Source of the DNA: a virus
IMG/VR virus record: IMGVR_UViG_3300046501_000163
Location: 1 to 34,067 of that record
Strand: one strand, 5' to 3'
DNA: 34,067 nucleotides
Positions 1,036 to 21,099 of this stretch are shown piece by piece. The stretch's first letter is position 1; each line of letters starts with the position of its first letter. The notes beneath the pieces are model-generated. The model did not search any database and was not told the DNA's origin. It saw nothing but the letters and a program-made list of their open reading frames with translations. The position numbers and the translations under genes were made by a program.

Positions 1036-1092
1036 GGGTGACACCGCCAACGTCACCCTTGCGCCCGCTCTGTAATGTCTGTCACCTCACAA
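1036..1092. promoter_or_regulatory. GGGTGAC inverted repeat plus TGTAATG box
   Basis: GGGTGAC (1036-1042) and GTCACCC (1052-1058) form a perfect 7-base inverted repeat with a 9-base spacer. It is followed by CTGTAATGTCTGTCACC (1070-1086). This CTGTAATGTSTGTG-type box recurs upstream of 8909 and of the minus-strand cassette (8831 and 12994 complement). No T-run follows the hairpin, so an operator/promoter reading is preferred over a terminator. It precedes the operon starting at 1108. Confidence 0.45.
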
Positions 1093-3242: not shown

Positions 3243-5564
3243 ATGGCAGACAACACGAGCGCCCGGCGTTTAACCAACAAGAAAAACGCCTTCCAGTTCG
3301 CAACGCTCGGCCTGGGCGTCTTCGTATCGGATGGCAAGGTGCCGCTGATCCCCCGCTACAATAAGTGGGATCACGAGATCACCGCCGAAGAGCGCGACGC
3401 GGCTGTCACCGAATATGCCGAGAAGCACGATGGCGCAGAGCCCGCGCATGTCGGCTGCACAAAAGACATCGCCGTCCTCAAGAAATTGTTCCGGCTGTTC
3501 CCCGACGCTGTGCCCTCGATTGCGTGTGGCCCGTCGAAGCTCCTGGTGCTCGACGCCGACGCGAAGGACAACGGCCCTGAATTGCTCGGTGCGCTATTCG
3601 CAGAGAATGGCGGCGTGCCCGCAGGCGTTCCGGTTATCCCGACGCGATCAGGCGGTCAACATCTGATCTTCAGCGACCCCGAAGGCAAGTACACCAACAA
3701 GGCTGGCCTGCTCAAAAAGCAGTACGGGACCGACGTGCGCGGCACAGGCGGCCAATTCGTCGCGCCTGGCTCAATGCGCGTGGATGGCAAGACCTACGGC
3801 ACGAACGACGACAAGCTCAATTTCTTACGCGCGATCCATGCGAATACGATCCCCACTATCCCTGAGTTCATCGTCGAGAAGATCGGCGCTGTCGACCCGT
3901 CGCTGAAGGAAGAGATCGCGCCGACCAAAGAGCGCGAGGTCATCAAGTCCCTTCAAGATGACGACATCACGCCGTTCGAGAACGCGTTCGACGCGGTGCT
4001 GGGCGACTACGATCTCGACAAGCTGAAGGCGAGCAACAAGCACTTCGCCGAACTATACGACAACCCCTCGGATGACTGCTCGACGAACCGCTTTCTCGCC
4101 GCGCGCATGGTCATGACCGAATGGCCGTCGATGCCTGTGCAGGCGCTCTCAATCTTCTTCAGCAATTGGGAAGGCGCTGGCGTCTACACCGACGACAAGC
4201 CGCGCAGCGGAGAGTACGACGACCGCCAGATCGCGCGCGAGTGGCTGAAGAATCAGGGCCTCTCCAAGCAGTCGACCGGCGAAGCGTTCGGCGCTGTCGA
4301 GGAAGACGACGAATACGACCGTGAGATCAGGCAGGACAAGGAGCGCGAAAAGCTCGCAGCCATGAAGGCAGAGGATCTGTTCTTCGCGGGCGAATGGGGC
4401 GCATACAACGAGCCTGACTACATCGTCGAGAACACGTTCACGCCGCAACAGATCGGCATGATCCACGGACCGTCGAACGTCGGCAAGACCTTTACAGTCA
4501 TCCACCTCGGCGAGCGCATCGTCGCAGGCGAGAAGTGGTTCGGTCTCAACGTCGCTCAGGGCGGGGTGCTCTATTGCTTCGGCGAAGGTCATGCGGGCCT
4601 GCGCAACCGTCTCTATGCCTACCGCAAGGTCTACGAAGACCTCGGCCTCGGCATGGTCGTGCGCGGCGGCATCCCGAACCTGGCGCTCAACCTGAAGGCC
4701 GCACGCAAAGCCCTGCGCAAGGCCATCATCGACGCCAACAAGATGTACGCTGAACGCGGCATGTCGCCGGTCAAGGTCGTCTTCCTCGACACCTTCGCCA
4801 AGGCCATCGCTGGCGCGCAGGAAAACGACGTGGCCGCCATTCAGCCGATCCTCAACGCGCTGCGTGAGCTGTGCATTGAGATGGAGGTTTGCATCGTGAT
4901 CGTCCACCACAGCGGCAAGGACACGCTGCTGGGGCCGCGCGGCAGCTCTGCCATCGTGGCTGACGTGGACTTCAACCTCGAAATCCTGAGCCACGCGGAG
5001 GCCAAGAAGCGCAAGCTCAACACGGTGAAGCCGGGCAACCTGGCTATCGTGTCGCCGAAGATGCGCGACAGCGGCAAGGCTGGGGTCCTTCAGTTCAAAT
5101 TGCAGGAAGTCCAGCTCGGCACCAACCGTTGGGGCAACCCGGTCACCAGCATGGCCGTGGTCGAGGGGCTCGACGCCACGCCGGGATCAGATGGCAGCGC
5201 CTTTGGTGCCGCGCCCGAGGATGACGCTGAAGCCCCCACATCCACGGATGCGCTGACGCCGGAGCAGAACCGGAAAGAGCAGGAACAGCGGATCGAGCTT
5301 TGCGCTCGCGTCGCGGCGGCCGTGCAGCAGGCAGGCGTCGACTCTGTTGAAGGGCGCATGGCCTCGGTCGAAGCGGTGCAGGGGCTCGTGCCTGCGCTCG
5401 CCAAGCTCCGGGCCGAGTGTGGTCGCGGCAACTTCGCCAAGGCGATCCGCCGCGTGCTGCTCGACGGTGAGCCAAGCGTCCTACTGCCGAGCGGCGGATG
5501 GCTGCAATATCTGCCAGCGACGGGCCGCCGCAACAGCTCGTTCGCCATCAAACTGAACCGATAA
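3243..5564 (+). CDS. Primase-polymerase / RecA-like replicative helicase fusion
   Basis: A 773-residue replication protein. The N-terminal part (about residues 10-220) looks like a bifunctional primase-polymerase (prim-pol, archaeo-eukaryotic primase fold): LVLDADAKD holds the DxD metal-binding pair (D104, D106), followed by PTRSGGQHLIF and GTDVRGTGGQFVAPGS. The C-terminal part (about 385-620) is a RecA-like hexameric helicase domain (AAA_25/RepA type): Walker A GPSNVGKT at 409-416, Walker B VVFLDTFAK, and the VHHSGKD motif at 554-560. The linker (220-385) is helical and acidic. The protein probably primes and unwinds phage DNA at the repeat-rich region directly downstream. The ATG follows the two hairpins; a terminator lies 20 bases after the stop. 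Confidence 0.85.
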   Translation: MADNTSARRLTNKKNAFQFATLGLGVFVSDGKVPLIPRYNKWDHEITAEERDAAVTEYAEKHDGAEPAHVGCTKDIAVLKKLFRLFPDAVPSIACGPSKLLVLDADAKDNGPELLGALFAENGGVPAGVPVIPTRSGGQHLIFSDPEGKYTNKAGLLKKQYGTDVRGTGGQFVAPGSMRVDGKTYGTNDDKLNFLRAIHANTIPTIPEFIVEKIGAVDPSLKEEIAPTKEREVIKSLQDDDITPFENAFDAVLGDYDLDKLKASNKHFAELYDNPSDDCSTNRFLAARMVMTEWPSMPVQALSIFFSNWEGAGVYTDDKPRSGEYDDRQIAREWLKNQGLSKQSTGEAFGAVEEDDEYDREIRQDKEREKLAAMKAEDLFFAGEWGAYNEPDYIVENTFTPQQIGMIHGPSNVGKTFTVIHLGERIVAGEKWFGLNVAQGGVLYCFGEGHAGLRNRLYAYRKVYEDLGLGMVVRGGIPNLALNLKAARKALRKAIIDANKMYAERGMSPVKVVFLDTFAKAIAGAQENDVAAIQPILNALRELCIEMEVCIVIVHHSGKDTLLGPRGSSAIVADVDFNLEILSHAEAKKRKLNTVKPGNLAIVSPKMRDSGKAGVLQFKLQEVQLGTNRWGNPVTSMAVVEGLDATPGSDGSAFGAAPEDDAEAPTSTDALTPEQNRKEQEQRIELCARVAAAVQQAGVDSVEGRMASVEAVQGLVPALAKLRAECGRGNFAKAIRRVLLDGEPSVLLPSGGWLQYLPATGRRNSSFAIKLNR

Positions 5565-5890
5565 ACGCGTCTGGAAACGCGTCTGAGAGGCCCTTCGGGG
5601 CCTCTTTTCGTTTCAGGGCTCGACGCTTAAAACCTTTAAGGGCTTGAAAACACACGCTTTTACGTCTGGACGCGTTTACGCATTCTTTTAAGCGTCCAGG
5701 CTGCCAGTGCGATAAGGGCTGTACGCGTTTCCAGACGCGTTTCCAAAAAGACTAAGCGGCTGAAAGTCTTCAAGAAAAGTGGTCAACGCGTAAACGCGTA
5801 AAGGCGTCTCAACTGTACGTGCTGATCGCCTACCTGAGAAACGCGTAAACGCGTCTGCTCCCTCTCCCCCTTTAGGGGGAGGGGAGACGC
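5563..5890. other. Candidate replication origin with ACGCGT iterons
   Basis: The noncoding stretch after the primase-helicase gene carries ACGCGT at 5565, 5577, 5670, 5723, 5735, 5786, 5794, 5841 and 5849. The pair at 5563-5582 (AAACGCGTCTGGAAACGCGT) and that at 5723-5742 are perfect 20-base inverted copies with a 12-base internal period. The later pairs are ACGCGTAA tandem repeats of 8 bases (5786-5801 and 5841-5856). Further structures are CTGGACGC (5666-5673) / GCGTCCAG (5692-5699) and a GC-rich hairpin at 5851-5890 (TCCCCC, loop TTTA, GGGGGA, flanked by GCGTCT/AGACGC). Iterons beside a replication initiator gene are typical of an origin; this is inference. Confidence 0.5.
5586..5609 (+). 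terminator. Rho-independent terminator after primase-helicase gene
   Basis: AGAGGCCC (5586-5593), loop TTCG, GGGCCTCT (5598-5605), then TTTTC. A perfect 8-base stem with the stable UUCG tetraloop and a T-run, 21 bases downstream of the primase-helicase stop codon. Confidence 0.85.
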
Positions 5891-5963
5891 ATTACGCTCA
5901 GTAGGTCCGGCTTGAAGATTTCAGGCTCGACGCCTTTCAGACGGACAGGTCGAAAAGTCGGCA

Positions 5964-6021
5964 GGTTGTTAAATTGCGCTTGGTGGGGTTGTAGCGTTAC
6001 AGACGTGACATCCCCTTACAG
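5964..6021. promoter_or_regulatory. TTGTTAAATTG element and TGTAGCGTTACA palindrome
   Basis: GGTTGTTAAATTG (5964-5976) matches the elements at 3071 and 7712. It is followed by TGTAGCGTTACA (5990-6001), one mismatch from the 12-base palindrome at 11341 and 21052, then GTGACA and further TTACAG copies at 6016-6021 and 6039-6044. The site controls the operon beginning at 6033, if the repeated arrangement reflects function. Confidence 0.45.
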
Positions 6022-6032
6022 CCGAGGCCCCC

Positions 6033-6377
6033 TTGTCCTTACAGCTCCAATCCCCGAACGGCCACGCCGTCTTCATTCGCCGCCCCGACCTCGTGATCTC
6101 CGTTCACGGCTACGAGAAGGCTGACAAGCGGTCCGGCGAGATGCGCGTCAATTCGGTCATCACGTTCCAGAACCGCGAGATCGTGTTTGTGGCCGGATGC
6201 CCCGAAGCGATCAACGCCGCGCTCGATGTGCAGATGCAGTTCCCGAACGAAGACATTCGGCGGCTCGACCCGACCGGCGACAACAGCCTGCCCAGCGACG
6301 GCGGCCATGATGCCTTCCCGCGCCACGTGGACGACAGCGTCGATCACACCGGCCTACCCCTGGGCAACGCACGATGA
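6033..6377 (+). CDS. Hypothetical phage protein (114 aa), TTG start
   Basis: A 114-residue protein of unknown function. The start is a TTG with GAGG five bases upstream; the next in-frame ATG is more than 100 bases further on and would discard a plausible N-terminus (SLQLQSPNGHAVFIRRPDLV). The first 75 residues alternate as in a beta-rich fold (VISVHGYEK, VITFQNREIVFVAG); the tail is acidic and probably flexible. Its stop overlaps the next ATG (ATGA). It is the first gene of the middle operon. Confidence 0.6.
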   Translation: MSLQLQSPNGHAVFIRRPDLVISVHGYEKADKRSGEMRVNSVITFQNREIVFVAGCPEAINAALDVQMQFPNEDIRRLDPTGDNSLPSDGGHDAFPRHVDDSVDHTGLPLGNAR

Positions 6378-7000
6378 CGGACCTGATGCGCGCCGTGCTC
6401 GACGGCACCGATCCCGACCGCGTCCTCGTGGCGGTCCGCACCGCCGAGGGTGTGTCGCTCGCGACCCGGAAGGACTATGGCCGTCCGCTCGACTATCTCC
6501 GCTACCGCAACCCGAAGCCGATCAGCGATGCGCAGTTCATGGCCGGTGAGTTCTACATCGCCGACTACGCCTCGATCTCTCAGGTCGGCTCGAACACGCA
6601 GGCCACCATCGACCACCTGATGAAGGCGGTCCCCATGACGGCAGATGATCGGCGGATGCTCCGCGAAGAGGGTGTCAACTCGCAGCGCATGCACCCGAAG
6701 TCCGAGTGCCATGAAGCGAGCGATCCCAGCGACCGGATGTTGAACGCCGCATTCACGCTGAAGCGGATCGACGACCAGCTCGACCCGATCCAGCGCGCGG
6801 TGCTCCGCGATCTACTAATCAACGAGCGCACCATCGGCACCATCGCGCAGCGTTGGAAGTGGACGCCCGAGACCGCTGGGGTCTTCGCCCGCTACGCGCT
6901 GTCTCGCCTGGTGCAAGTCTACGAAGGGCTGCGCGAAGACTTCGCCGCATACCTGCGACAGGAGCGGCAGAACGAACTCGAAGCGGCAGTCGGTCTGTGA
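6374..7000 (+). CDS. Putative DUF6456/HTH-type phage regulatory protein
   Basis: A 208-residue protein. Residues about 50-70 (ISDAQFMAGEFYIADYASI) and a C-terminal segment (about 138-185: IQRAVLRDLLINERTIGTIA, then RYALSRLVQVYEGL) recall the DUF6456 family of proteobacterial and phage proteins, whose C-terminal part is a sigma-region-4-like helix-turn-helix. Such proteins occupy the late-regulator position in several phages, but function is not proven. Upstream of a promoter-terminator-tRNA arrangement, it is the best candidate here for an antiterminator or late activator. It overlaps both neighbours (ATGA and GTGA junctions). Confidence 0.5.
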   Translation: MTDLMRAVLDGTDPDRVLVAVRTAEGVSLATRKDYGRPLDYLRYRNPKPISDAQFMAGEFYIADYASISQVGSNTQATIDHLMKAVPMTADDRRMLREEGVNSQRMHPKSECHEASDPSDRMLNAAFTLKRIDDQLDPIQRAVLRDLLINERTIGTIAQRWKWTPETAGVFARYALSRLVQVYEGLREDFAAYLRQERQNELEAAVGL

Positions 7001-7835: not shown

Positions 7836-7910
7836 TGGAGTGTAGCTCAGTGGTAGAGCAGTGGTCTCCAAAACCGCGTGTCGTAGGTTCGAATCCTACC
7901 TCTTCAGCCA
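7836..7910 (+). tRNA. tRNA-Trp (CCA)
   Basis: A full cloverleaf of 75 bases with encoded CCA. Acceptor TGGAGTG (7836-7842) pairs with CTCTTCA (7900-7906), with one U-U mismatch and one G-U. D-arm GCTC/GAGC; anticodon stem GTGGT/ACCGC; loop CTCCAAA with anticodon CCA at 7868-7870; T-arm GTAGG, TTCGAAT, CCTAC; discriminator G73. CCA anticodon and G73 are the main tryptophan identity elements in bacteria. The U1-A72 end and the mismatch are unusual for tRNA-Trp and suggest a phage-evolved copy. It lies between a terminator and a small gene, so it is probably expressed only by readthrough. Confidence 0.93.
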
Positions 7911-7930
7911 ATCCAATCATGGAGGCCGTC

Positions 7931-8811: not shown

Positions 8812-8852
8812 TGTAATGCGCTTGACACGTCTGTAATGTGTGTGGCATTACA
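8812..8852 (+). promoter_or_regulatory. Promoter with TTGACA and 21-base operator TGTAATG-N7-CATTACA
   Basis: TTGACA (8822-8827) is a perfect -35 box. CATTAC (8846-8851), 18 bases downstream, is the possible but weak -10. TGTAATG (8832-8838) and CATTACA (8846-8852) form a perfect inverted repeat with 7-base spacer; an extra TGTAATG lies at 8812-8818. The same arrangement is found on the opposite strand at 12973-13002. It drives the secreted-protein gene at 8909. Confidence 0.6.
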
Positions 8853-10430: not shown

Positions 10431-10482
10431 GGGCTCATCAGTAGCGGCATAACCGCTAGACGCGCGTGCGCGCGTTTCGCCC
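10431..10482 (-). ncRNA. Hammerhead ribozyme A (type II)
   Basis: On the minus strand, 52 bases contain every conserved element of a hammerhead with open stem II: GGGC (10482-10479), GAAA (10478-10475), stem III CGCGC/GCGCG closed by a short loop plus the A15.1-U16.1 pair, cleavage triplet GUC ending at 10459, stem I UAGCGG/CCGCUA with loop UUAUG (10458-10442), CUGAUGA (10441-10435) and GCCC (10434-10431), which pairs with GGGC. Cleavage is expected between 10459 and 10458. The first G is also the last base of the UAG stop codon of the gene before it. Family knowledge: CUGANGA, GAAA and NUH are the catalytic core. Confidence 0.9.
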
Positions 10483-11042
10483 TAGTATGCGGGGGCCATG
10501 TCAGGCCGAGATGCTTCGATATCAGCGGCCATTGCGGCGTTAAGGCGCGACAGAATGTCATCCGCCAATTCGTGCGCGGTATCTTCAAGGTACGAATAGC
10601 AGTCGGATTCGATACCCCAAACGCTTTCGCTTTCGTGTGTGGCGTCGCCATCGCTATCAAGCGCGGTAACCTCTACGCCAACATAGTGCCATTGATCGCT
10701 GCACCATTGGCGCAAGCGGTTGAAATCAGCCATAGCAGCGCGCGCCGCGCGCTCGCCGCGTGTACCTTCGCCATAGGGCGCGGTATCCCAGCCATCGCGC
10801 TTTGCAATGCGCACGGCTTCAGCGAAGTCATAGGTGCGATAACTGCCGCGATCCCAATGCAGGATCATTTCGCCGGGGGCTTTAGGGGGCTTCGAACCCA
10901 TGCCTTCGCGATGGCGTCGCCACTCGCTAACGGGGCCATGCCCGTCGCATTCTTCCCACGGCGCGCCGTGGTCTGAGTCGTGTGGGAAGTTTACGCGGAA
11001 TGTGCGTCCGCCGCGTTCAAACGTATCGTTGTCGAAAAGCAT
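10482..11042 (-). CDS. Conserved hypothetical protein (186 aa) between two hammerheads
   Basis: A 186-residue protein with pattern FRVNFPHDSDHGAPWEECDG, then HGPVSEWRRHREG, GEMILHWDRGSYRTYDFAEA, KRDGWDT and RLRQWCSDQWHYVGVEV, ending with WGIESDCYSYLEDTAHELAD. This is a recognisable arrangement found in uncharacterised phage/plasmid proteins (PWE-DGHG, DRG-R-YDF, GWD, W-YVGV). It is probably cytoplasmic, tryptophan-rich, and might be an anti-defence or host-interaction protein; nothing shows a catalytic role. Start: ATG behind leader GAAAGGATCTTAACGCC. It is the only gene flanked on both sides by hammerhead ribozymes, so its message would be cut free as an RNA of about 630 bases. Confidence 0.7.
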   Translation of the reverse strand: MLFDNDTFERGGRTFRVNFPHDSDHGAPWEECDGHGPVSEWRRHREGMGSKPPKAPGEMILHWDRGSYRTYDFAEAVRIAKRDGWDTAPYGEGTRGERAARAAMADFNRLRQWCSDQWHYVGVEVTALDSDGDATHESESVWGIESDCYSYLEDTAHELADDILSRLNAAMAADIEASRPDMAPAY

Positions 11043-11060: not shown

Positions 11061-11113
11061 GGGCTCATCAGTAGCGGCGTAACCGCTAGACGGCGCGTCG
11101 CGCCGTTTCGCCC
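11061..11113 (-). ncRNA. Hammerhead ribozyme B (type II)
   Basis: On the minus strand, 53 bases: GGGC (11113-11110), GAAA (11109-11106), stem III of 7 pairs including A15.1-U16.1 (ACGGCGC / GCGCCGU around loop GAC), cleavage triplet GUC ending at 11089, stem I UAGCGG/CCGCUA with loop UUACG (11088-11072), CUGAUGA (11071-11065) and GCCC (11064-11061), closing stem II. Cleavage is expected between 11089 and 11088. Compared with copy A, the stem III sequence differs on both sides with pairing kept, while the core is identical. The first G is the last base of the UAG stop of the upstream gene; the downstream ATG at 11042 is 46 bases after the cut. Confidence 0.92.
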
Positions 11114-11322
11114 TAGTGCGCGCGGCGTTCCTTCAGCGCGTAAGCACCCACGGAATTTCCGTTTATGTCGGGAATGTTGCGGTAGTAATCGCAGGGCTCG
11201 CCGCGTTCCAAGCGCTCCGCGACTACCCGCAACATGCGTGCAATCTCCGCTTGGCAGTCGTCTTCAAATGCCGCGCCTTCGCAGACGATTTGCAGTTTGA
11301 AAATCTTGTCATCGCCACTCAT
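11113..11322 (-). CDS. Small conserved phage protein (69 aa)
   Basis: A 69-residue protein: FKLQIVCEGAAFEDDCQAEI, then ARMLRVVAERLERGEPCDYY, ending DINGNSVGAYAL. The order (beta strand, AAFED, a helix ARxLRxVAxRLExG, then D-NGN-VG) matches a widespread family of tiny phage proteins (FxLxIxxxNAAF ... LRxLAxxLExG ... DxNGNxVG) with no assigned function. Start ATG preceded by GAAAGGA. Its UAG stop codon forms the beginning of hammerhead B. It is acidic and soluble. Confidence 0.7.
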   Translation of the reverse strand: MSGDDKIFKLQIVCEGAAFEDDCQAEIARMLRVVAERLERGEPCDYYRNIPDINGNSVGAYALKERRAH

Positions 11323-11340: not shown

Positions 11341-11352
11341 TGTAACGTTACA
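11341..11352. promoter_or_regulatory. Perfect palindrome TGTAACGTTACA
   Basis: A perfect 12-base palindrome, identical to that at 21052-21063. It overlaps the stop codon of the 417-residue gene and lies 19 bases upstream of the start of the 69-residue gene on the minus strand. It could be an internal operator of the cassette. Confidence 0.5.
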
Positions 11353-12972: not shown

Positions 12973-13002
12973 TGTAATGACACAGACATTACAGGCATTC
13001 AA
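12973..13002 (-). promoter_or_regulatory. Promoter/operator of the minus-strand cassette
   Basis: On the minus strand TTGAAT (13002-12997), a 17-base spacer and CATTAC (12979-12974) give a weak sigma-70-like promoter. TGTAATG and CATTACA (12993-12987 and 12979-12973) form the same 21-base inverted repeat with 7-base spacer as at 8832-8852. The element starts about 50 bases upstream of the first gene. Confidence 0.55.
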
Positions 13003-13825: not shown

Positions 13826-14477
13826 GTTGCCGCGAAAGCTCCCCGCAAAGGGCATCGCGATACTCTTTGGCGTCAGTGAGCAGCGCATTTCGCAGATGAA
13901 GCGTAAAGGCCAGCTCACGCCGGACAGCTCAAACCTGTACGACGTGCAGCAAGCCATGACGCTTCGTGGTTTTCAGATGAGCGAGCACGGCGTCCGTGTC
14001 ATCGCGCAGGAATACGGGAACGGCACGGGCCAAGTAGCCCCAGCTAAGATCGTGCCGGTCGCTACGCCGACAGAGCCGCAGCTATCCGCCGAGGATCGCG
14101 AAGCACTCGGTCTCGATGTCGAGATCAGTCAAGTAGCTCCATCGCCGAATAGCCAGATCGCAGCGCAGACGCGCATCTCCGAACTACGCGAAGCCAAGCT
14201 ACGCGCCGAACTGGACCGCGCCGAGAACCGGCTGCGTAAGGAGCGGGGCGAATTGGTCGAGCGTGTCCAGGTGCAGCGGTCATTCGTGCAAGCGGGCGCG
14301 CTCGTCGCGAACATCTTGCAGAACTTGCCTGCGGAGATCGCGGCTCTGTTTCCCGATCCTGAGATGAAAGCGGAAGTGCGGAGGAAGGTGCAGATGCGCA
14401 TCGACCAGACGCACCACGCGCTCTACTCGGCCGTGAAGGGCTTCGGAGAAGAAGATGTTGATGGACCCACTGTTTGA
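13818..14477 (+). CDS. Terminase small subunit (Nu1-like)
   Basis: A 219-residue protein preceded by GGAGG and overlapping the acetyltransferase gene by 8 bases. Residues about 4-35 (LPAKGIAILFGVSEQRISQM) form a winged helix-turn-helix like the N-terminus of lambda Nu1, which binds cos DNA. Residues about 125-160 are a charged helix suited to coiled-coil oligomerisation (RISELREAKLRAELDRAENR), and the C-terminal part would bind the large subunit. Its overlap with the large subunit gene (23 bases) supports the assignment. Confidence 0.75.
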   Translation: MPELPRKLPAKGIAILFGVSEQRISQMKRKGQLTPDSSNLYDVQQAMTLRGFQMSEHGVRVIAQEYGNGTGQVAPAKIVPVATPTEPQLSAEDREALGLDVEISQVAPSPNSQIAAQTRISELREAKLRAELDRAENRLRKERGELVERVQVQRSFVQAGALVANILQNLPAEIAALFPDPEMKAEVRRKVQMRIDQTHHALYSAVKGFGEEDVDGPTV

Positions 14478-16263
14478 GGGTCTTGCCGAAGGGATGAAGC
14501 CAAAGCCGAAGCTGTCGCTATCGGAGTGGGCGGAAAAGAAGATGGTTCTGCCGCCTGAGCGCGCATCGAACCCCGGCCCTTATCGCGTCGGTGATGCCAC
14601 GTTCCAACGCGGCATGATGGATGCGATCACTGACCCGGATAACGAGGACATCGTCTTCGTTACTTCGTCTCAGGTAGGCAAGACGACGATCATCGTGGCC
14701 GCGCAAGGTTATTACTGCGAGGCCGAACCGTGCGGTCAGCTTTCGGCGTGGCCCACGCAAGACGTGGCCGACGCATACGTTGTCGAAACATTCGAGACGA
14801 CGGTGCGCGACACGCCTGACTGGCAGCGCGTCATGACCGGCGCGACTGAGTACAAGGGCGGCTTCATCAAGTTCGTTGGCGCTAACACGCCCAACAAGCT
14901 CGCGATGACGCCGATCCGCGTAGTCACAGGCGACGAAGTGGATCGCTGGCCGGTTAGCTCCGGCAAGGAAGGTTCGCCGGTCGAGTTGGCAAAGAAGCGT
15001 CGAACTACATTCCACAACCGTAAGGGCCTGTGGGTGTCGACGCCGGTCCATGAAGACACGAGCACCATTGTTCAGCTCTTCAAGGAGACGCGCCAGCACT
15101 ACTTCTTGGTCAAGTGTCCCGCCTGCGAGCTGAAGCAGCCGCTGAAGTGGGAGAACGTGATCTACTCGAAGGGTCGCGAAACCGAAGCCGAATATGCGTG
15201 CGATGGCTGCGGCGACCTATGGGGTGAACTACTGAAGCGTCGTCTCGTCCGCGAGGGCGAATGGCAGCACCTTCAGAAATCGCCATTCAAATGCTTCCAG
15301 ACTGATACGCCACCGCACCGCGAGCGGGCGGGCTTCTGGATCAACGAGTTGTATTCGCCGTGGTCCTCCATGCGCGAGATGGCGAAGGCTTGGACAGACG
15401 CCGAGGGCAACCCGGAGCTTGAACAGACCTTCTTCAATACCCGACTCGGCCTTCCGTATCGCGGCGACATTTCGAGCTTCGCGGACCCCGAGGGTCTGAA
15501 GGCGAGGCGAGAGAAGTACGATCCGAAGAAGGTGCCGAAGCGGGCGGCTCTGCTCACTGCCGGTGTTGACGTTCAGGACGACCGCATCGAAGTGCTGGTC
15601 GTCGCATGGGGCAAGGGCGACGAGAGTTGGCTGCTTGAGCACCATGTTATCCAGCTCGATCCAAGTACGGATCAGGCGTGGGATGAACTGACGGAGTTCC
15701 TGAAGAAGGGGTACCCCCATCTTGGCGAGGCCGGTGAGACTCTCGGTATCGCAGCGGCAACCGTCGACTCGGGCGGCCACTTCACGCAGAAGGCATACGC
15801 CTACAGCGCGAAGTACCTGGCGCTCGGTTATCGGTGGTACGCGCACAAGGGCGTAGCCGGTGAAAAGAAGCCGATCTGGATCAAGTCGGAGCAACGCTTC
15901 AAGGACAACGTCAAGCTGTTCTTGATCGGCGTCGATGATGCCAAGGCGACGATCTACACGCGATACGCAAACCAGAAGCGCGGGCCGGGCTATGTCCACA
16001 TTCATGAGGGCATCAGCGACGACGCTATCGCGCAGATGACAGCGGAGCGCGCGGAGACCGAGTACGTCAACGGCTTCCCAAAGCGAACGTGGACGAAGCC
16101 AAGGCACCGTCGCAACGAAATGCTCGACATGTACGTCTACGCCTACGCCGTGCGGTGCTCGTTGAACATCGACATGGATGCTTGGATCGCCAAGCTCAAC
16201 ACCTCGAAAGAGCAAGCCCCGAAGGCGCTAAGCGCCGAAGAGATCGGCAAGCTCTATCGCTAA
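14455..16263 (+). CDS. Terminase large subunit, GpA family
   Basis: A 602-residue packaging motor of the lambda gpA type. The ATPase domain has the P-loop-like FVTSSQVGKTT (S71-T78) and the Walker B region VVTGDEVDRWP. A zinc-binding insertion typical of the family is seen as CPAC at 221-224 and CDGC at 249-252. The C-terminal nuclease begins around VDVQDDRIEVLVVAWG (about 372-387) and contains AATVDSGGHF. It cuts concatemeric DNA at cos and translocates it into proheads. The ATG at 14455 overlaps the small subunit gene; ATG 14461 is an alternative. Confidence 0.93.
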   Translation: MLMDPLFEGLAEGMKPKPKLSLSEWAEKKMVLPPERASNPGPYRVGDATFQRGMMDAITDPDNEDIVFVTSSQVGKTTIIVAAQGYYCEAEPCGQLSAWPTQDVADAYVVETFETTVRDTPDWQRVMTGATEYKGGFIKFVGANTPNKLAMTPIRVVTGDEVDRWPVSSGKEGSPVELAKKRRTTFHNRKGLWVSTPVHEDTSTIVQLFKETRQHYFLVKCPACELKQPLKWENVIYSKGRETEAEYACDGCGDLWGELLKRRLVREGEWQHLQKSPFKCFQTDTPPHRERAGFWINELYSPWSSMREMAKAWTDAEGNPELEQTFFNTRLGLPYRGDISSFADPEGLKARREKYDPKKVPKRAALLTAGVDVQDDRIEVLVVAWGKGDESWLLEHHVIQLDPSTDQAWDELTEFLKKGYPHLGEAGETLGIAAATVDSGGHFTQKAYAYSAKYLALGYRWYAHKGVAGEKKPIWIKSEQRFKDNVKLFLIGVDDAKATIYTRYANQKRGPGYVHIHEGISDDAIAQMTAERAETEYVNGFPKRTWTKPRHRRNEMLDMYVYAYAVRCSLNIDMDAWIAKLNTSKEQAPKALSAEEIGKLYR

Positions 16264-19991: not shown

Positions 19992-21047
19992 ATGAATATT
20001 CCTCTTCAGCGTTACGAGACGTGGGAACTCGACACGATGGTCGCTCAGATCGAGCGTCCCAATCCGTGGCTGCTTCGCACGTTCTTCCCCGGCTCGAAGT
20101 TCTTCGACACCAAGCAGATCGAGTTCGACATCGTCGACCGTGGCCGTCGCTTGGCACCGTTCGTAGCGCCGACCGTCGCTGGCAAGCCGATGACCCGCGA
20201 GGGCTACCGCACTCGCACGCTGACGCCGGCCTACATCAAGCCGACCGAGCTGGTGCTGCCGACGCAGGCGTTCACCCGTCTGCCCGGCGAGGGTGCCTAC
20301 GGCGGCGTCCTGACGCCCAAGCAGCGCTTCGACGCCATCGTCGCTGAGCAGCTCAATCTCCACGAAGAGATGATCGACAACCGCCTCGAATGGATGGCCG
20401 CGCAAGCCCTTGTCGGCGGCGGCATCACCATCTCCGGCGAGTCGTACCCCGAGGTCCATGTCGACTTCGGCCGCAACCCCAACCTCGCAATTCAGCTCAC
20501 GGGCGGCGCGAAGTGGGATCAGGCGACCGCTAACCCGCTCGGCGACATCGAGTCGGCGTCGCTCAACGTTCGGCGCATCTCGAAGGGCGCAGTCGTCACC
20601 GACCTGGTGATGGACGGCGCATCTTGGGATCTGCTCAAGAAGAACGCCGATGTCGAAGAGCTGATCGACATCCGCTATCGTCGCGATGTCGGCGGCACCA
20701 CGGCCATCGACGCGGGTCCGCGTACCAAGCTGAATGAAGCTCAGTACGTCGGCACGCTTCAGGGTCGTATCGACCTGTGGGTGTACGACTCGTACTACCA
20801 GGACGACGCGGGCAACGATCAGCCGTACATCCCGCCTTACACCGTTATTGGTGTGGCGAAGCACGCGCTGGAAGGCACGCAGTATTTCGGTGCCATCATC
20901 GACCTCGAAGCGGACATCGCGGCTCGCCGTTCGTTCACGAAGTCGAAGGTGAAGTTCAACCCGTCCGGCCTTGAGCTGGTCACGCAGTCCGGTCCGTTGG
21001 TCGCTCCCAAGCGCCCGAATGCGACTTTTGTGCTGACCGTCAAGTAA
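19992..21047 (+). CDS. Major capsid protein, gpE family
   Basis: A 351-residue capsid subunit of the lambda gpE type (HK97 fold). The family signature is clear from the start: LQRYETWELDTMVAQIERPN, WLLRTFFPGSKFFDTKQIEF, RLAPFVAPTVAGKPMTREGY and TRTLTPAYIKPTE. Later YDSYYQDDAGNDQPYIPPYT and the ending LVTQSGPLVAPKRPNATFVL are also typical. AAGAAGGG lies upstream of the ATG. A 12-base palindrome follows 4 bases after the stop. Confidence 0.95.
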   Translation: MNIPLQRYETWELDTMVAQIERPNPWLLRTFFPGSKFFDTKQIEFDIVDRGRRLAPFVAPTVAGKPMTREGYRTRTLTPAYIKPTELVLPTQAFTRLPGEGAYGGVLTPKQRFDAIVAEQLNLHEEMIDNRLEWMAAQALVGGGITISGESYPEVHVDFGRNPNLAIQLTGGAKWDQATANPLGDIESASLNVRRISKGAVVTDLVMDGASWDLLKKNADVEELIDIRYRRDVGGTTAIDAGPRTKLNEAQYVGTLQGRIDLWVYDSYYQDDAGNDQPYIPPYTVIGVAKHALEGTQYFGAIIDLEADIAARRSFTKSKVKFNPSGLELVTQSGPLVAPKRPNATFVLTVK

Positions 21048-21051
21048 CGTC

Positions 21052-21099
21052 TGTAACGTTACAGCGGATCACGCCGCCTCGCTCGAAAGGGCGGGGCGG
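21052..21099. promoter_or_regulatory. TGTAACGTTACA palindrome and GC-rich hairpin after capsid gene
   Basis: TGTAACGTTACA (21052-21063) is identical to the site at 11341. It is followed by a 9-pair hairpin CCGCCTCGC (21074-21082) / GCGGGGCGG (21091-21099) with one T-G pair. The unit lies between the capsid gene and the 91-residue gene and suggests separate control of the latter or modulation of capsid-to-tail readthrough. Confidence 0.5.

Follow-up and report, generated by a model that had tools for sequence, protein, structure and literature searches.

What marks the start of DNA replication in a virus that is represented by a single 34,067-base record from IMG/VR (IMGVR_UViG_3300046501_000163; this whole analysed stretch is called the window here), and which protein would recognize it? 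A sequence-only reading of this DNA had pointed to a repeat-rich stretch directly behind a replication initiator/helicase gene and proposed it as a candidate iteron origin. We addressed this question by comparing the array, the gene and their counterparts in relatives, and found that positions 5563-5900 are very probably, as judged from sequence, the start site of DNA copying in a soil phage. In the reading that we favor, to which we assign a probability of roughly 85%, this stretch is the origin, the 773-residue protein encoded next to it would act as its own initiator through its C-terminal domain on the AAACGCGT iterons, and this domain and the array would together form a specificity module.

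The repeat array and the gene in front of it

The features on which the argument draws are as follows, with the strand given where one was assigned; L004 is a related locus, and lengths are in base pairs (bp).

3243-5564, plus strand: primase-polymerase (prim-pol)/RepA-type helicase gene, 773 amino acids, with Prim-Pol at residues 66-191 and the AAA_25 helicase at residues 381-560
5289-5561, plus strand: last ~90 residues of the protein, put forward as a winged-helix domain for iteron binding (specificity module), covarying with the iteron and 54% identical to L004
5290-5932: exchange or co-variation block of C-terminal domain and origin, from the drop in window/L004 identity in 120-column steps
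5563-5585: left iteron pair AAACGCGTCTGG, 12-bp period (repeat and period analysis)
5585-5606, plus strand: terminator-like hairpin of the prim-pol/helicase gene (terminator scan), with a counterpart visible in L004
5619-5669: AT-richer spacer between iteron groups, 48% AT, with CCTTTAAGGGCTTGAAAACAC exactly common to L004
5670-5682: single iteron and half-site ACGCGTTTACGCA (motif positions, L004 alignment)
5723-5745: inverted iteron pair ACGCGTTTCCAG, 12-bp period (repeat and period analysis)
5784-5808: 8-bp iteron run CAACGCGTAAACGCGTAAAGGCGTC (repeat and period analysis)
5839-5856: 8-bp iteron pair AAACGCGTAAACGCGTCT (repeat and period analysis)
5864-5881: distal GC-rich hairpin CTCCCCC-TTTA-GGGGGAG, proposed origin hairpin, without a T-run on either strand
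5887-5897: trailing half-sites ACGC..ACGC past the hairpin, where L004 has ACGA (L004 alignment)

The window contains 22 copies of ACGCGT, of which nine (at 5565, 5577, 5670, 5723, 5735, 5786, 5794, 5841 and 5849) lie within 290 bp at 5565-5854, in agreement with the earlier count of nine in less than 300 bases. At the background rate, 328 bp would carry 0.13 copies (Poisson P = 2e-14), and no other stretch of that length in the window has more than two. The remaining 13 copies all fell within 30,196 coding bases and none within 3,545 other noncoding bases, with coding and noncoding DNA divided according to a hand-picked list of open reading frames (ORFs); an equal density of the motif in noncoding DNA elsewhere, which would have spoken against the candidate origin, is therefore not seen. 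At a word length (k) of 6, the count of nine equaled the maximum of 60 shuffles and so is not beyond chance alone; at k = 8, AAACGCGT occurred seven times, compared with a shuffle maximum of three. Short repeats are thereby clustered above chance beside an initiator-like gene, which ends at 5564 while the array begins at 5563, directly behind it as had been described.

Repeat analysis also recovered the perfect 20-bp inverted repeat that had been noticed (5563-5582/5723-5742, arms 140 bp apart) with its internal 12-bp period (5563-5585 and 5723-5745), and the two 8-bp tandems at 5785-5807 (2.9 copies) and 5839-5854 (2.0 copies). The hairpins mentioned in that reading were likewise found, at 5585-5606 and 5864-5881; the former is weak by itself, one terminator-like hairpin being found versus 0.9 expected from shuffles, and the latter is not among the sites reported by the terminator scan. 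An Rfam search of the window returned tRNA only, and a DNA search of phage records gave no counterpart of the array region, the matches listed (20 of 261 records) lying nearly all on tRNA-Trp.

The ORF at 3243-5564 matched Prim-Pol (PF09250, E = 1.3e-18) and AAA_25 (PF13481, E = 5.4e-23), and its nearest solved relative by profile was the RSF1010 RepA helicase (1g8y, E = 5.4e-7, profile 381-571), so that a RepA-like RecA-fold helicase domain is present by both measures. The last ~90 residues matched no Pfam family at E 0.001. An AlphaFold2 model of this C-terminal domain (predicted local distance difference test score, pLDDT, 80; predicted template modeling score 0.67) consists of helices followed by three strands, and its VIA list is made up mostly of winged-helix proteins, including the plasmid and chromosome initiators RctB and Pi. 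The corresponding model from locus L008 (type II; pLDDT 81) matched ORC1, KAT6A and Cdc6 in Foldseek with probability 1.00, and reached Z scores in VIA of up to 10.3 (78 residues aligned, root mean square deviation (rmsd) 3.1); 114 chains scored at least 8. In these models, the L008-type domain is clearly a winged helix; the window model is matched only weakly, and its winged-helix fold is therefore graded as likely.

Arrays in relatives and covariation with the C-terminal domain

To collect relatives, IMG/VR, genomes from GTDB and further genomes were scanned at the protein level. Around Bradyrhizobium STM 3809, matches were obtained in 6/391 genomes of its family, in 1/397 of its order and in 7/265 of its genus, and because Bradyrhizobium and Tardiphaga are named among the sources, we infer that the phage host probably belongs to the Bradyrhizobium/Tardiphaga group. 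The 8-mer most frequent behind the gene was determined de novo at 16 loci and compared with 60 shuffles, using upstream coding DNA as the control. It exceeded all 60 shuffles at 15 of the 16 loci (L013 being included in this count only through a motif that is not iteron-like), with a shuffle maximum at k = 8 of three throughout; the upstream control yielded 2-3 copies of its top 8-mer at all 16. Locus L011 exceeded the shuffles at k = 6 only, with 11 copies of CGTGCG. Some loci were redundant (L010 is the same contig as L006, and L015, L016 and L026 repeat L011, L012 and L013). The top 8-mers behind the gene were as follows.

L004: CAATTCGT, 5 copies
L006: AAAGTGCC, 9 copies
L007: CGGAAGGT, 11 copies
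L008: ACTGGCGG, 9 copies
L009: GGAAGGAA, 12 copies
L012: CGTGGGGG, 5 copies (contig ends 220 bp behind the gene)
L014: ACCGTGCA, 10 copies
L017: CGCATGAT, 7 copies
L018: TGACACGC, 9 copies
L019: GTGGCGGA, 7 copies
L020: ACCGTGCA, 10 copies
L029: TTGAAGCG, 6 copies
L030: GACTGCCG, 4 copies

The general layout in relatives is an 8-bp array with its own sequence in each, usually with an AT-richer spacer inside it and a GC-rich hairpin at its end. A perfect stem of at least 7 was found near the distal end in 17 of 22 arrays, versus 0.82 expected from shuffles, and these stems vary widely in sequence; the apex motif CC[AT]nGG (16/22 versus 6.2 expected) was weaker than the stem itself and was set aside. 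An AT-rich region between or beside the iterons was also found, since in 20 of 22 arrays the AT content of the largest gap was above that of the flank downstream (48% versus 39% in the window), an effect that is modest and measured against flanks that are largely coding.

We also examined a more distant sample of 18 named RepA-type helicase records, hand-chosen from 549, with 100 shuffles each. An array right behind the gene exceeded all shuffles in seven of them, compared with none of 18 upstream of the gene and none of 18 within it:

Sinorhizobium phage RHph_X2_25: GCGTGACA, 14 copies
Rhizobium phage 16-3: GCGTGACA, 12 copies
Caenibius plasmid p1: CTTCCGCA, 12 copies
Methylobacterium currus plasmid: GCGCAACA, 6 copies
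Roseobacter phage CRP-811: ACTACAAA, 10 copies
Alteromonas phage PB15: GTGAACCA, 5 copies
Idiomarinaceae phage 1N2-2: AATGTACC, 5 copies

RHph_X2_25 and 16-3 keep the same iteron while their spacers drift, and the last 110 residues of their proteins are 72% identical. As read from these comparisons, the 12- and 8-bp spaced repeats of the window are members of an origin family with exchangeable iterons, which was not visible from the window alone.

In order to relate the iterons to parts of the protein, iteron similarity was compared in Mantel tests with the identity of the C-terminal domain, the helicase and the prim-pol domain separately, excluding L013 because it lacks an array. With 15 loci, the correlation was r = 0.416 (P = 0.0004) for the C-terminal domain, 0.236 (P = 0.02) for the helicase and -0.022 (P = 0.57) for prim-pol. 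When L055 was added (16 loci), the values were 0.514 (P = 0.0002; partial 0.422, P = 0.0006) for the C-terminal domain and -0.069 (P = 0.71) for prim-pol, and without the partial ORF of L020 the C-terminal domain retained 0.440 (partial 0.383, P = 0.0006) while the helicase partial was 0.076 (P = 0.21). By this measure, iteron identity tracks the last ~90 residues of the protein and not the primase-polymerase domain. Two pairs illustrate the pattern from opposite sides: L008 and L019 are 32% identical in prim-pol, 22% in the helicase and 63% in the C-terminal domain and have TGGCGG iterons in common, whereas the window and L004 are 98%, 99% and 54% identical in the same order and their iterons differ. 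The iterons lie downstream of the helicase gene, where recognition by its C-terminus would place them, and this covariation is an indirect sign of such recognition.

A blind prediction of the iteron, recorded beforehand, was borne out in L055 (ACCGTGCA, nine copies). L053 was dropped as a further blind test because its ORF is the L019 ORF. For L007, the exact GGAAGGAA predicted from the likeness of its C-terminal domain to that of L009 had no matches; the array has GGAAGGT instead, and the prediction was correct only for the GGAAGG core. The viral contig L053 and the Bradyrhizobium-group genome stretch L019 carry the same prim-pol ORF and array, which suggests that this element is a prophage. 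At L006, an extra ORF (4634-5182) lies between the prim-pol gene and the array.

Switched iterons and competing explanations

The window and L004 differ within sharply bounded limits. Their DNA identity is 0.92-1.0 up to about 5280, with an edge step of 0.79, falls to 0.47-0.66 inside the block (5281-5932), with a far-edge step of 0.73, and returns to 0.95-0.99 just after it (5933-6291). The layout inside the block is kept, as both hairpins (the terminator-like and the distal one) and CCTTTAAGGGCTTGAAAACAC have aligned counterparts in the two; a search of IMG/VR for the exact backbone pattern CCTTTAAGGGCTTGAAAACAC gave no match beyond L004. Of 15 L004 half-sites (ACGA/TCGT), 10 coincide with ACGC/GCGT of the window, versus a mean of 0.36 and a maximum of 3 in the shift null. 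Since the positions of the half-sites were kept, the array was not swapped for an unrelated one, and the sites appear to have been changed in place. A second such switch was seen between PB15 and 1N2-2, where 10 of 11 GGTACA/TGTACC sites of 1N2-2 coincide with GGTTCA/TGAACC of PB15, compared with 0.18 on average and at most 2 in the null; over 163 columns, the spacers of this pair share 55% identity.

Arrays of similar design but different sequence behind the genes of relatives, together with a motif that tracks the C-terminal domain, fit an iteron origin bound by its initiator and lend support to the candidate origin of the sequence-only reading. From the array, the conserved architecture, the covariation and the sharp block edges, all of them sequence features, we infer binding, melting, priming and a selective reason in the following form. 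The C-terminal domain, as a putative winged helix, would bind the AAACGCGT iterons directly behind its own gene; grouped binding around the AT-richer spacers may help the DNA to melt; the hexameric helicase would be loaded onto the exposed strands; and the fused Prim-Pol might lay the first primers, perhaps, more speculatively, at the distal hairpin. From one relative to the next, the C-terminal domain and the array would change jointly, either through exchange or through stepwise co-evolution, so that a phage would not have to activate the origin of a relative.

Several observations weigh against this interpretation. A clear origin signal was not seen in the GC skew of the window, which changes from +0.048 (5001-6000) to -0.060 and -0.087 (5501-7000) as a local bend and not a global extreme and is uninformative in this respect. 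The window C-terminal model had no significant Foldseek match (best E 0.48), and its best VIA Z was only 4.9 (rmsd 3.7, 82 aligned). Locus L013 has no array, its stop codon being followed by no more than two copies resembling TCTGGCGG, and in L007, L014, L020 and L055 other genes or sequence separate the gene from the array by ~0.7-1.5 kilobases (kb). No array was found behind the gene in 11 of the 18 distant records, namely Mae-JY30, GB2A, KYD2, Thonko, ReqiPine5, ct76p945, pPNAP03, p2_510, Upyo, H40/1 and Kc166B, the last within 131 bases downstream, and a large share of the evidence on the family derives from contigs, metagenomic or other, that may be incomplete. The array gap was not AT-richer in L029 and the M. 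currus plasmid. From the window side, the exact switch is seen at only 10 of the 25 half-sites, and a second, smaller dip in window/L004 identity (0.72-0.86) lies at 6232-6471, outside the block and not at the origin. Helicase identity also correlates with iteron similarity (16 loci, r = 0.354, P = 0.0016; partial 0.168, P = 0.047).

This last correlation counts in favor of a reading in which the origin is real but a separate initiator binds the iterons, the covariation with the C-terminal domain reflecting linkage by adjacency. The domain and the array adjoin, so that recombination would carry both. However, the covariation holds across a gap of 0.7-0.9 kb in L014, L020 and L055, which all have ACCGTGCA and C-terminal domains 57-66% identical, and among the loci read no further gene stood out as constant, though no systematic test was made; we consider linkage unlikely. 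Partition and packaging sites can have regularly spaced repeats, and the array of the Caenibius plasmid record is only ~2.5 kb away from a terminase gene, as might be expected if the array were a partition (centromere-like) or packaging (cos/pac) site for another phage protein. In the window, however, the terminase large subunit is encoded 8.5 kb away (14455-16263), and a separate binding protein would leave the covariation with the helicase C-terminus unexplained, which makes such a function very improbable indeed.

It is also conceivable that the array is an operator cluster, in which a regulator on ACGCGT (the helicase C-terminus or a separate repressor) controls the early region and no replication starts. 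Repressor operators also show repeated sites, and the gene is followed by a terminator-like hairpin and an intergenic palindrome. Against this, a scan of 5400-6100 found no sigma-70-like promoter (other promoter types were not covered), the motif tracks the helicase C-terminus, and phages, prophages and plasmid records alike have such an array behind this gene; an operator cluster is thus quite unlikely, and the initiator-bound origin remains the reading that we prefer.

Known systems, other repeats and significance

In SaPI Rep and SCC Cch2, the initiator helicase uses its C-terminus to recognize short iterons that immediately follow the gene encoding it (PMC7581432, citing Ubeda 2007). By analogy, our best reading is that the present system works like SaPI rep/ori, with another helicase and a fused Prim-Pol. 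The SaPI and SCCmec Rep proteins resemble it in being initiator helicases with iterons directly downstream of their own gene, whereas their helicases, as that source describes them, are of the DUF927 or D5/Primase_Cterm kind and the window protein is of the AAA_25/RSF1010 RepA type with Prim-Pol (PMC7581432); Pfam at E 0.001 gave AAA_25 and Prim-Pol only, and neither DUF927 nor D5/Primase_Cterm. The recurrent distal hairpin is a further difference from SaPI/SCC.

ORF904 of the Sulfolobus plasmid pRN1 combines Prim-Pol, helicase and a C-terminal winged helix in one protein, and an essential region with a terminator and stem-loop lies directly downstream of its gene (PMC4234260). The window ORF has the same fusion of Prim-Pol to a helicase (PF09250 and AAA_25), but the pRN1 helicase belongs to SF3, pRN1 has no iteron structure according to the authors of that work, and the hairpin of the window, at 18 nt, is much smaller than the 100-nt stem-loop of pRN1 (PMC4234260). 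Phage P4 alpha likewise joins primase, helicase and a repeat-binding C-terminal winged helix, although its primase is of the TOPRIM type (as summarized in PMC4234260) and the window protein has Prim-Pol and AAA_25 only. RSF1010 oriV shares a RepA-type hexameric helicase and an iteron origin; there, RepA, RepB' and RepC are separate and RepC recognizes the repeats (PMC4234260), whereas in the window prim-pol and helicase are fused (3243-5564). The RepA/ori of PLE (Vibrio satellites), with the Odn nuclease, resembles this family in covariation of DNA-binding domain and iteron, module swapping and origin restructuring, and differs in that the domain concerned is the N-terminal one (RepA_N) and the iterons are three semi-palindromes of ~30 bp, with no fused primase/helicase described in the portion of the source used here (PMC8263062). 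A literature search found no paper joining prim-pol, helicase and iterons, nor one joining Bradyrhizobium prophage and iterons.

Other repeats were noted in the window. Intergenic palindromes resembling TGTAACGTTACA occur at 252-263, 5990-6001 (within a stretch also present in L004), 11341-11352 and 21052-21063, with 10 two-strand matches at two or fewer mismatches versus 3.2 expected, and are possibly an operator or promoter family. The 22-bp element CTGTAATGTCTGTnACnTnACA, a candidate phage promoter or operator, occurs at 1070-1091 (plus), 8831-8852 (plus), 12973-12994 (minus) and 21042-21063 (plus), with four matches at three or fewer mismatches and none in 100 shuffles. Neighboring repeats at 10431-10494 (32 bp, 97%) and 11061-11125 (33 bp, 76%), separated by ~630 bp, are found where minus-strand ORFs end. 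A tRNA-Trp (CCA) gene at 7836-7910 is seemingly absent from L004, where matches skip from about window position 7840 to 7920.

How an initiator and all of its binding sites shift together has been a long-standing puzzle, as a change in either alone should halt replication. Somewhat short of even odds, and so tentatively, we propose an evolvable lock-and-key at the origin, in which the C-terminal winged helix and the 8-bp array would reach new specificities jointly, in some cases through exchange of the module (L008/L019) and in others through a concerted switch of about ten iterons that stay in place (window/L004; PB15/1N2-2), with a GC-rich hairpin, free in sequence and kept in structure and place, as the primase start. 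Nucleases directed at the origin, relatives that superinfect or satellites might supply the selective pressure; for PLE and Odn, an origin-directed nuclease may drive the covariation of origin domain and iteron (PMC8263062). Natural pairs that differ almost solely in the C-terminal domain and iterons make the recognition code and the switching path testable, and an 8-bp array ended by a hairpin behind the helicase gene would serve as a rule for finding origins in little-studied RepA-helicase phages and plasmids; Rhizobium phage 16-3 and Sinorhizobium phage RHph_X2_25 are named examples of this layout.

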